From: Caryophanon sp.
GTDB lineage: Bacteria > Bacillota > Bacilli > Bacillales_A > Planococcaceae
Assembly: GCA_018384745.1 (NCBI GenBank)
Contig: JAHAYH010000095.1
Location: 1-36,011, forward strand
Direction of reading: 5' to 3'
DNA: 36,011 nucleotides
In this document: positions 5,937 through 28,490 of the stretch, in pieces
Position numbering within the stretch: position 1 is the first letter of the stretch
How the letters are laid out: the number at the start of each line of letters is the position of its first letter
The notes under the pieces: model-generated
The model's input: the letters and a program-made list of their open reading frames with translations, nothing else
What the model was told of the DNA's origin: nothing
The model's database searches: none
Program-made: the position numbers and the translations under genes

Positions 5937-5970
5937 TTTTGTTAATAACTGAACGTAGGAGGTGTTTCAT

Positions 5971-6297
5971 ATGTTATCCGTACAACGTGTAACAGCGACT
6001 CCATCATCTGTGAAGCATATGCAATATGCGTATTTAGAGCATTTACAACTGTATCCTTCCGCTGCTGAAACAGCTGCATATAAGCAACCGTCTAAACAGT
6101 CAGTACAACAAAACGAACCGAGCTTTTTAGACAGACTTGAGCGCGCTCATTTACAAACACCATCAATGAAAGAACGTGGGTTTTTGAAAAAGCGTACGCA
6201 GTTCCGCGAGCAAGAGGAGCTCTTACAGCAAATGAATTATACAAATAGACTTCATTACAGTCAGCTACACAACATAGAGACGTTACACAAATCGTAA
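5971..6297 (+). CDS. small protein of unknown function, putative general stress gene
   Basis: A 108-residue protein that I do not recognise. The ATG at 5971 has an excellent ribosome-binding site (AGGAGGT, seven-base spacer), so it is preferred over the upstream GTG at 5962. The product is soluble, with no membrane segment, signal peptide or cysteine. It is rich in Gln, Leu and charged residues, and the second half (SFLDRLERAHLQTPSMKERG, then KKRTQFREQEELLQQMNY) looks helical. It is one of only two protein genes on the + strand. It stands where spoVT is found in B. subtilis but shows no AbrB-type domain. A SigB-like promoter lies upstream and a two-way terminator downstream, so it is a complete one-gene transcription unit. 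Function unknown; a stress role is inferred only from the promoter. Confidence 0.78.
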   Translation: MLSVQRVTATPSSVKHMQYAYLEHLQLYPSAAETAAYKQPSKQSVQQNEPSFLDRLERAHLQTPSMKERGFLKKRTQFREQEELLQQMNYTNRLHYSQLHNIETLHKS

Positions 6298-11601: not shown

Positions 11602-12000
11602 TTACGATTTAAACGCAAAATAACGCTGCCCTGCATAGTTGCAAAGAGTGAATAATACCATACCAACAGCCATTGCAATATTCTCCTGTATACGAACCGA
11701 TGTATCACTTAGGACGAACAACACAAGCGGTTTAGCGAGCGCATACGCAATAACGTAGCACACGACAATATTGAGTGCGAATTTCACGACGTACTTCCAT
11801 GATTTATCCGTTTGTTGGAATGTGAAATACTTATTTAAAAAATAGCTTAAAATGCTCGCTAAAAAATAATTCCAAAACGATGCACTCCAGTAGCTAAAGC
11901 CTGCGATATTATACAGCCCAAACATAATTCCAGTACCGACAACAGTATTAATGATACCGACAATTAAAAACTTTATAAACGTTTTATCAATTTTCTTCAT
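11602..12000 (-). CDS. GtrA/GtcA-like membrane flippase
   Basis: A 132-residue protein with four membrane helices, of the GtrA-like family (FIKFLIVGIINTVVGTGIMF at the start, NYFLASILSYFLNKYFTFQ in the middle). Such proteins are thought to flip undecaprenyl-phosphate-linked sugars to the outside of the membrane. The start overlaps the preceding glycosyltransferase by 14 bases, so the two are translationally coupled. It is the last gene of the three-gene cassette. No clear terminator follows, so read-through into ctc is possible. The acceptor polymer (teichoic acid or another glycan) cannot be told from sequence. Confidence 0.88.
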   Translation of the reverse strand: MKKIDKTFIKFLIVGIINTVVGTGIMFGLYNIAGFSYWSASFWNYFLASILSYFLNKYFTFQQTDKSWKYVVKFALNIVVCYVIAYALAKPLVLFVLSDTSVRIQENIAMAVGMVLFTLCNYAGQRYFAFKS

Positions 12001-12913
12001 CTGTTGTTTTCTCCGCTACGATGTATCGTGGTCGCTTGCGTACTTCATCATAAATGCGCGCAATATAATAACCAATAATCCCGAGACTTACCATCATAAT
12101 ACTGCCAATAATAAGTAGTAATAAAATAACGGTCGTAAAACCTTCTAGCGCTTCACCGTTAAAAAACTGGACGAACGCATTCACACCAACGACAATAGCA
12201 AGCAACGAAAATAAGATGCCGAGCGCCGTTACAATTTGCATCGGCAGCATTGAAAAGGACGTCACATTTGTAATTGCATAACGTACAAGCCCCCTTAATG
12301 ACCATGTCGTTTCTCCTTCTACACGCTCGTTGACAACGTACGCTACAGAGGTCGAACGATACCCGAGCCAATACGTGAGCGCGCGGAAAAACAGTTGATT
12401 TTCTTGTAGCTGTAAATACGAATCAACAACTTTACGATCAAGCAGCTTATAATCTGATGAGCTTTCCATATTAAATTTTGTAATGCGGCGAATCGTTTCA
12501 TAAAACAGCTTTGATGCACCTTTATAAAAGGCAGACTCTTTGCCTCGGTGCTCTTTTACACCTTCAACAATTTCGTAGCCTTGCTCCCAAAGTGCATACA
12601 TATCTAATATTTTCTCTGGTGGATGCTGCATATCTGAATCCATCACAACAACACATTCTCCGCGTGCCTCTGATAAGCCAGCGTAAATAGCAGCCTCCTT
12701 CCCAAAGTTACGTGATAAGCAAATACCGCGTACGTTTATATGCTCTATGCTCGCCTTTTCAATTTCATGCCACGTTTCATCGCGCGGTCCATCGTTTACA
12801 AAAATAATCTCATACGACGCAGTAAACTGTTCGAGCGTTTTATGCAAGCAAGCTACTGCATAATGAATACCTTTCTTTTCCTTATATGTTGGCAATACAA
12901 TCGACAGCTTCAT
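11987..12913 (-). CDS. family 2 glycosyltransferase, GtrB/CsbB type
   Basis: A 308-residue GT2 enzyme resembling GtrB, CsbB and dolichol-phosphate mannose synthases. It begins KLSIVLPTYKEKKGI, has EIIFVNDGPRDETW, SRNFGKEAAIYAGL and the metal-binding DSDMQHPP, and ends with two membrane helices near residues 225-285. It is expected to load a sugar onto undecaprenyl phosphate inside the cell for flipping by the GtrA-like partner. Its ATG shares one base with the stop of the upstream gene (TAATG). In B. subtilis csbB is SigB-regulated; whether that holds here is not visible. Confidence 0.92.
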   Translation of the reverse strand: MKLSIVLPTYKEKKGIHYAVACLHKTLEQFTASYEIIFVNDGPRDETWHEIEKASIEHINVRGICLSRNFGKEAAIYAGLSEARGECVVVMDSDMQHPPEKILDMYALWEQGYEIVEGVKEHRGKESAFYKGASKLFYETIRRITKFNMESSSDYKLLDRKVVDSYLQLQENQLFFRALTYWLGYRSTSVAYVVNERVEGETTWSLRGLVRYAITNVTSFSMLPMQIVTALGILFSLLAIVVGVNAFVQFFNGEALEGFTTVILLLLIIGSIMMVSLGIIGYYIARIYDEVRKRPRYIVAEKTTDEEN

Positions 12914-14454
12914 TAGTCCATCTCCCTAAACTTCACTACAGCTGTTCCATCAATGACTTGTACAGAAGAAGCATTCGGCCAAACATCCATTTGCTTAAAC
13001 TGCGTTGTCTTTTGAATGCGCTCAATTTGCTGCGCATCTGCTGCCTTTAATTGCACACCATAATACACATCATACAGCTTTTGATAATGGAACGAGGTCG
13101 GTAAAAAAATCTCGCCTGACGAGCCTGTTATCGATGGAATCGCTTCTGGAATATCTATTGAAGTAAGTGGTGAATGTAAGCGTGTATAGCCTAGCACTGC
13201 AATATTTTTCACCTCATGATAATTTTCAAGTGCTTCAATACGCATTAATACACGGTCGGCTAATGCAAATGACTTCTCATATTTAATGTTCATATTGAAA
13301 TACGCGATATTGGCAATAATGCCAAAATTAATCACAACCGCAATAACTGAAAGCCATGTTGTAGAAGCAGCTATTTTTATCGGCATACGCATTGATACAT
13401 CAACCTTATCAAAGAAGCAAAGCGCAAGTACATATACCGTTACATTCGCATACACCATCAGCATATGGTATTGTACGTCACCTGATGTGAAATACACTGC
13501 ATAATATGCAATTGGGATGAGCGCTATAATGATGCATGTAAGTAACAGCTTCCCAACATGCTTATATAACTTTTGCTGCACACTAAAGTACACAGTAAAC
13601 AAGATGAGTAGCATTGCTAAAACGATATGAAGGAAATCCCATGTGCGCAGTGCACCAACTGTATACAGTCCTTCAAAGAAAAACTTCAGCATTTGCTCAT
13701 GTATTGTATAGCGCAGTGCCCATATTTCACTTAGTGACGGAATTCCTGCTGTATCGAGCCCTTGGTAGCTTACAATTAACCCTTGCATTTGATAAATTTT
13801 GTAATGAATTAAATAAAGTGCCATACCACCTGTAAATACAATGAGCATTTGACCGCTTTGTACAAACAACGCTTTCACGCTATGACCTTTTATTAATAGT
13901 TGCTGTAATGCAAAAACACAAATAAATGCCAAAATAATTGTTAAGTTTGCCTGATAAATACCAACGCTTATATACGTCAATAAAATACCTACTAGCCAGC
14001 CGTAGTGCCATAGCTTTGTGACAACAAGTGCCGAAATCGCGACCAATATACCTAGCATATAGCCATCTGCGGTAAACATATATGAAAACGTTGATGTCAC
14101 CGTAGGAAAAGCAACAACGACTCCACCAATAACAATTGCTGTGCTATTTTTTTGAATGTCGAGAAGAATCACAATAAGAAGCGCTACAACACTTAAATAA
14201 AATAGCGAAAACACACCATTTACCCACGGCAAATCAAAATAAGAGCTCCACATGCTCGCATATTGTAAAAAGAACCGACCAGAAGCGGTCTTATTTTGCT
14301 CCTCATGTATATTTGAAAAGCTATCATGCGTATGGTAATGATTTAAAAAAATAAAGCTATGAACTAGCAATCCAATAATAAATGCTGCAACGAATGCCCA
14401 TTTTGATTGCTTCGATAAACGGCTCGTTATATTGCGCAGCCACACATCAATCAT
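12913..14454 (-). CDS. GtrC-like multi-pass membrane glucosyltransferase
   Basis: A 513-residue membrane protein. The N-terminal two thirds hold roughly ten or more hydrophobic helices, with an external loop after the first (NHYHTHDSFSNIHEEQNKT) that carries acidic residues typical of GT-C enzymes. The last 120 or so residues form a soluble domain. Architecture and context match the glucosyltransferase (GtrII/GtrC-like) partner of GtrA/GtrB systems, which transfers the lipid-linked sugar to an outer polymer; YfhO plays this part in B. subtilis. The start follows AGGAGG. It is the first gene of the cassette. Identity of the acceptor is unknown. Confidence 0.75.
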   Translation of the reverse strand: MIDVWLRNITSRLSKQSKWAFVAAFIIGLLVHSFIFLNHYHTHDSFSNIHEEQNKTASGRFFLQYASMWSSYFDLPWVNGVFSLFYLSVVALLIVILLDIQKNSTAIVIGGVVVAFPTVTSTFSYMFTADGYMLGILVAISALVVTKLWHYGWLVGILLTYISVGIYQANLTIILAFICVFALQQLLIKGHSVKALFVQSGQMLIVFTGGMALYLIHYKIYQMQGLIVSYQGLDTAGIPSLSEIWALRYTIHEQMLKFFFEGLYTVGALRTWDFLHIVLAMLLILFTVYFSVQQKLYKHVGKLLLTCIIIALIPIAYYAVYFTSGDVQYHMLMVYANVTVYVLALCFFDKVDVSMRMPIKIAASTTWLSVIAVVINFGIIANIAYFNMNIKYEKSFALADRVLMRIEALENYHEVKNIAVLGYTRLHSPLTSIDIPEAIPSITGSSGEIFLPTSFHYQKLYDVYYGVQLKAADAQQIERIQKTTQFKQMDVWPNASSVQVIDGTAVVKFREMD

Positions 14455-27754: not shown

Positions 27755-27893
27755 GTACACTATCCTTTGCTATGCATGTTCAAGCGTAATTGTATGACAT
27801 TTAGACATCATTCGACATCGCGATGTTAAAATGTACTACTTTCGATAGTTATAACATATATTGAATATTAATTACTTCAATCTCTGAAATAAG

Positions 27894-27926
27894 TTCGACA
27901 AATAGGGATTTTGTCGAATTGTCGAA
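27894..27926. promoter_or_regulatory. upstream Spo0A-box cluster
   Basis: TTCGACAAA (27894-27902) and TTTGTCGAA (27910-27918) form a perfect 9-bp inverted repeat with a 7-base centre. Another TGTCGAA follows at 27920-27926. All three contain the Spo0A core TGTCGAA. Confidence 0.55.
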
Positions 27927-28061: not shown

Positions 28062-28090
28062 TTGACGTTTATGGAATTAGTTGGTATGAT
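28062..28090 (+). promoter_or_regulatory. SigA-type promoter of abrB
   Basis: TTGACG (28062-28067), a 17-base spacer and TATGAT (28085-28090). The leader to the ATG is roughly 68 bases and contains the 0A boxes. Confidence 0.78.
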
Positions 28091-28111
28091 ACCACATAGA
28101 CAAGAAGATAA

Positions 28112-28128
28112 TGTCGAATTTTGACGAA
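28112..28128 (+). promoter_or_regulatory. tandem Spo0A boxes in the abrB leader
   Basis: TGTCGAA (28112-28118) and TGACGAA (28122-28128) start ten bases apart, one helical turn, just downstream of the predicted transcription start. This is the arrangement through which Spo0A represses abrB in B. subtilis. Confidence 0.72.
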
Positions 28129-28164
28129 ATGTATATACTGATATATATTAGGAGGAATACTTTT

Positions 28165-28443
28165 ATGAAATCAACAGGAATTGTGCGTAAAGTAGACGAA
28201 CTAGGACGCGTAGTTATTCCAATCGAATTACGTCGTACGTTAGGAATCGCAGAAAAAGATGCGTTAGAAATTTATGTAGATGACGATAAAATCATCTTAA
28301 AGAAATATATGCCTAACATGACTTGCGCAGTAACTGGCGAAGTATCTGATGATAACTTCCGTTTAGTTGGCGGTAAACTAATTCTTAGCCCAGAAGGCGC
28401 ACAACAATTAGTGAAAGAAATCGAATCAAACTTAAAAAAATAA
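28165..28443 (+). CDS. abrB: transition-state regulator AbrB
   Basis: A 92-residue AbrB (MKSTGIVRKVDELGRVVIPI, then ELRRTLGIAEKDALEIYVDD and the single-Cys NMTCAVTGEV). The N-terminal swapped-hairpin domain binds DNA and the C-terminal half forms tetramers. AbrB represses stationary-phase genes, including spoVG in B. subtilis, during growth. The start is ATG 28165 with GGAGG nine bases upstream; a longer frame from 28111 would begin inside the 0A-box leader. It is one of two + strand protein genes and stands alone, with its own promoter, tandem 0A boxes and terminator. Confidence 0.95.
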   Translation: MKSTGIVRKVDELGRVVIPIELRRTLGIAEKDALEIYVDDDKIILKKYMPNMTCAVTGEVSDDNFRLVGGKLILSPEGAQQLVKEIESNLKK

Positions 28444-28455
28444 TCGTTTATTTTT

Positions 28456-28490
28456 CCGACATGTAACCCGTTACATGTCGGATTTTATAT
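28456..28490 (+). terminator. Rho-independent terminator of abrB
   Basis: A perfect 12-bp stem CCGACATGTAAC/GTTACATGTCGG (28456-28467 with 28470-28481), then ATTTTATAT. Confidence 0.85.

Follow-up and report, generated by a model that had tools for sequence, protein, structure and literature searches.

The abrB leader and its tandem 0A boxes

The window, meaning the whole 36,011 nt stretch analysed here, carries abrB within the gene order metS-abrB-rsmI-yazA-trmN6-yabA; the gene is identified from its domain, its match to abrB of named Bacillales and this order. The elements in and around its leader are as follows.

28062–28090, + strand: SigA-type abrB promoter, TTGACG-17-TATGAT, with TG before the −10 (sequence reading; kept in genus mates)
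28112–28118, + strand: 0A box 1, TGTCGAA (core match, family comparison)
28122–28128, + strand: 0A box 2, TGACGAA (core match, family comparison)
28150–28156, + strand: abrB ribosome binding site, AGGAGGA, approximate (by eye)
28165–28443, + strand: abrB, transition-state regulator of 92 aa (AbrB domain, sequence match to AbrB of other Bacillales, metS-abrB-rsmI synteny)
28455–28482, + strand: terminator-like hairpin 3′ of abrB, with a 12-pair stem and a T-rich tail (sequence reading)

The promoter comprises a −35 element, TTGACG (28062–28067), a 17 nt spacer and an extended −10, TATGAT (28085–28090). Downstream of it, and upstream of abrB, the two boxes lie 10 bp apart from start to start, separated by TTT and together spanning 28112–28128. 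Two TGNCGAA cores with this spacing, situated 3′ of the abrB promoter and followed by abrB itself in metS-abrB-rsmI synteny, constitute the arrangement of a Spo0A-repressed abrB operator. The complete pair, TGNCGAANNNTGNCGAA, occurs only once in the 2.15 Mb assembly, within the abrB leader. A promoter-like match at 28121–28149, which overlaps box 2, was judged to be a chance occurrence (6 promoter-like sites found, 5.3 expected). As Rfam at gathering thresholds returned only tRNA and rRNA from the window, no known riboswitch accounts for the abrB leader.

Repression of abrB by Spo0A is classical (Strauch et al. 1990, as cited in PMC3485338). The sequence-only reading of this DNA had described a good SigA promoter followed by TGTCGAA and TGACGAA ten bases apart, in the layout of the B. 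subtilis abrB promoter. Promoter and boxes are indeed present at the positions given above, whilst the likeness in layout extends to box order and spacing, but not to the distance from the −10. In B. subtilis, compared here through its close relative B. inaquosorum (L031), TGTCGAA and then TGACGAA are similarly found 10 bp apart, 3′ of a SigA promoter and 5′ of abrB. The spacer there is TAA rather than TTT, however, and the −10 element and box 1 are 16 nt apart in those leaders of the B. subtilis group that were read, as opposed to 21 nt in the window and 19–22 nt across the family. A further difference is that the host lineage here is without sporulation genes.

Loss of sporulation genes and conservation of the boxes

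Comparison with a sporogenous relative, G017 (gene names in which we assigned ourselves, from the proteins and where they lie), reveals that fin, spoVT, yabP and yabQ are missing from the window, with gene order otherwise conserved, in keeping with the earlier claim that neighbouring sporulation genes are gone. In G002, spoIIE is also missing from between yabR and tilS. Amongst 200 genomes of the family, SpoIVA is missing from every member of six genera, amounting to 46 genomes (counted by subtraction for those not in the match list); SpoIVA was the sole spore marker in the genome-wide searches, and asporogenous herein means SpoIVA-less. The window's genus belongs to such a lineage, with this core spore gene absent from all three of its members (G000, G001 and G002). 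Within a different genus, g2, SpoIVA matches are weaker in G003, G038 and G053 (E-values of 1.9 × 10−12, 2 × 10−56 and 1.1 × 10−40, respectively) than in G021 (4.9 × 10−87), and Spo0A_C scores remain high despite this; sporulation may be decaying inside this genus.

Of the same 200 genomes, only this assembly and the members of genus g9 lack Spo0A. For the five SpoIVA-less genera that retain Spo0A, 44 abrB leaders were read from 43 genomes, this one included, and both boxes are perfect at all 12 core positions in every one of them (44/44). Identity across these leaders is 1.00 for the box cores, versus 0.69 before and 0.54 after the pair, and in the three members of the window's genus all 12 core positions are kept while the flanks vary. 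Conservation also extends to the order, with 12/12 core positions found in 63 of the 80 leaders from named Bacillales, 11 in a further 11, 10 in five and 9 in one. Non-spore-formers that encode Spo0A have been catalogued previously (Exiguobacterium, Macrococcus and B. selenitireducens; PMC3533761), and the genera described here resemble them in keeping Spo0A after spore-gene loss; the two Exiguobacterium abrB leaders read both retain 11/12 core positions. They differ in comprising five genera of one family, accompanied by a sister genus without Spo0A and without boxes.

That sister genus, g9, consists of two genomes, G010 (100 % complete) and G028 (98 %), with Spo0A absent from both. Neither box occurs within 280 bp in their abrB leader, the entirety of which has been replaced, although metS-abrB-rsmI-yabA synteny is intact; a search of g9 for a short Spo0B-type protein returned none. 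The loss of Spo0A was probably a single event, and since one probable loss is shared by two genomes with a replaced leader, the joint disappearance of Spo0A and boxes counts as one data point. Evidence from g9 that Spo0A would be what maintains the boxes is thus good, but not replicated.

Spo0A, its phosphorelay and the reading of the operator

A search of the whole assembly for the Spo0A_C domain gave no match; what matched the Spo0A of a genus mate were other response regulators, through their receiver domains. In both genus mates spo0A sits between recN and fapA. Besides spo0A, no clear ortholog of yqxC, ahrC, recN, fapA, glpQ or bcd was found in this assembly, making the missing block yqxC-ahrC-recN-spo0A-fapA-glpQ-bcd. 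Because recN and five further neighbours are also missing, the absence of spo0A points to a gap, and because the joint loss of recN and ahrC in one event is less likely, a missing contig is the likelier cause. The assembly consists of 170 contigs and, though rated 90 % complete, measures 2.15 Mb, compared to 3.3–3.6 Mb in the genus mates; as a result of this small size, gene absences from it are unreliable without synteny. The spo0A locus most likely falls in an assembly gap. Two other members of the phosphorelay were located.

Between fbaA and pyrG, this assembly: spo0F, 121 aa receiver protein (neighbourhood)
Between rpmA and obg, this assembly: spo0B, 194 aa SPOB_a protein (domain and neighbourhood)

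Both reading frames are open, and both genes lie in the canonical neighbourhoods of the Spo0 phosphorelay. Identification of Spo0F and Spo0B through gene neighbourhood has precedent, with L21, L27 and ObgE as markers for Spo0B, and no role outside the Spo0 pathway is reported for either protein (PMC6136694). The sequence-only reading had suggested searching for spo0A and spo0F/spo0B, with the lack of a spo0A gene refuting it. The latter two are present and spo0A is formally lacking; this is uninformative, however, because its whole block is missing and the genus mates carry the gene.

One alternative is that spo0A was truly lost here, and so recently that the operator is a relic yet to decay. 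The lack of a Spo0A_C domain would fit such a loss, as would the far-drifted DNA-binding domains of Spo0A in the genus mates. Set against this, six neighbours are missing alongside spo0A, as a gap would produce, spo0F and spo0B are dedicated to Spo0A and yet persist with open frames, and the cores are fully kept in all three genus members despite varying flanks. A recent genuine loss is accordingly considered improbable.

The drift of the protein itself is pronounced. Of the two Spo0A domains, the DNA-binding one is the better conserved in sporogenous relatives (0.86, versus 0.68 for the receiver), whilst in the SpoIVA-less genera its identity is 0.73 in g10, 0.60 in g13, 0.55 in g8, 0.43 in g1 and 0.36 in g7, with the receiver dropping only to 0.48–0.63. 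In the window's genus, the DNA-binding domain thus shares no more than 43 % identity with its counterpart in sporogenous relatives. Residues 227–240, through which sigma-A is presumably contacted in activation, drop the most, from 0.83 among sporogenous genera to 0.12–0.58 in SpoIVA-less ones. Across 33 sequences (including one from B. subtilis that serves mainly for numbering), the phospho-site residues D10, D11, D56 and K108 are invariant, as are the recognition-helix residues E213, R214 and R217 in all genera sampled, which we take to be those contacting 0A-box bases. Drifted domains with these invariant residues are found at loci L001, L002 and L220–L249. The notion that Spo0A of G001 and g7 is without a base-contact arginine was rejected, as the changed residue is R211 and E213, R214 and R217 are kept. 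On the DNA side, PMC3485338 describes G2, C4 and G5 of the 0A box as specifically contacted. Where dS was estimable, dN/dS for spo0A is 0.01–0.12 in g8, g10 and g13, in which Spo0A is under purifying selection; in the window's genus it is approximately 0.34 with dS near saturation, and constraint there may be relaxed. The DNA-binding domain has therefore drifted in SpoIVA-less genera, with the core recognition residues and the abrB operator unchanged.

Strong divergence of this domain in g1 and g7, beside a constant operator, might suggest that the boxes are maintained for a regulator other than Spo0A. The invariance of E213, R214 and R217 argues against this, as does the disappearance of the boxes from g9, the only genus lacking Spo0A, and such a regulator, for which we know of no candidate, is very unlikely. 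Chance resemblance in AT-rich leader DNA is refuted: although lone TGNCGAA sites are frequent across the window (42 observed versus 24 expected) and unremarkable, the notable feature is the spaced pair, which arose in 0/20,000 dinucleotide shuffles of the DNA between metS and abrB on the + strand (1/20,000 when either strand is counted) and is conserved across the order.

The boxes of the abrB leader would thus be the ordinary Spo0A operator of abrB, in a circuit that likely serves as a stationary-phase switch without spores, a reading to which we give a probability of about 0.82. A phosphorelay of kinase, Spo0F and Spo0B would raise the level of phosphorylated Spo0A, which would bind the two 10 bp-spaced boxes just 3′ of the promoter; abrB would be turned off, and genes silenced by AbrB during growth released. 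Because the genus has lost its spore genes but retains Spo0A, the circuit is most likely now a switch from growth to stationary phase in which no spores are made. For this genome we infer the position of spo0A within the gap, the binding and repression by Spo0A, and the physiological output. The operator is probably part of a known circuit still in use, and the earlier proposal that Spo0A control of abrB persists finds support in the comparisons, namely the 44 perfect leaders, the co-loss in g9, purifying selection in three of these genera and the presence of spo0F and spo0B. The uses suggested for the phosphorelay in that proposal, namely stationary phase, biofilm or cell morphology, would be candidate outputs of the circuit. 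Seen across these genera, the apparent survival of Spo0A-AbrB control beyond the loss of sporulation is well supported.

As such, the operator is a further instance of known control, with clean comparative support; less ordinary are the drift of the Spo0A DNA-binding domain in SpoIVA-less genera and a second 0A-like element approximately 200 bp upstream of the operator. The role of Spo0A beyond spores is put to a natural experiment by these SpoIVA-less genera, five of which have retained Spo0A along with the abrB operator and one of which has neither. Genes on which 0A boxes survive in those five would represent the regulon outside sporulation, and repression could be parted from activation by means of the drifted DNA-binding domains.

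A distal 0A-like element and other features of the window

Two stretches upstream of the abrB promoter contain further 0A-like sequences.

27797–27818, − strand: degenerate tandem 0A-like pair, TGTCGAA-TGA-TGTCTAA, upstream of metS, including a 0A-like site at 27811–27817 (sequence reading)
27894–27926, strand left unassigned: distal 0A-like cluster of TTCGACA at 27894 and TGTCGAA at 27912 and 27920, located some 200 bp 5′ of box 1

The distal element (27894–27926) is common to the window and both genus mates, and is missing from abrB leaders in g7, g13, the Spo0A-less g9 and part of g8. In 46 of 80 named Bacillales loci (within L004–L083), a + strand TGTCGAA precedes box 1 by 180–240 bp, versus 1.0 expected, and the wider stretch holds 79 copies on the + strand versus 25 on the − strand. 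A second TGNCGAA, matching at least 5/6, follows exactly 10 bp on in 14/63, with 0–2 at other offsets. The distance of the element follows abrB and not metS. A published account of a distal metS-abrB 0A site was not found in the open-access literature, and this tandem 0A-like element, whose spacing from the abrB operator is conserved across many Bacillales, is apparently undescribed. It is conceivable, if doubtful, that Spo0A in SpoIVA-less Caryophanaceae-type genera has been reduced to a small-regulon, mainly repressing form, and that the distal element in many Bacillales binds Spo0A jointly with the promoter operator.

Elsewhere in the window, three genes at 11602–14454 resemble a surface-glycan cassette by eye, encoding a GtrA-like membrane protein, a glycosyltransferase and a 513 aa membrane protein, with no matching genes in the compared region of G017. 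Between mfd and yabM, a 111 aa ORF (5962–6297, + strand) lies on the strand opposite to its neighbours; sporogenous G017 has a counterpart with 32 % identity in the corresponding position.
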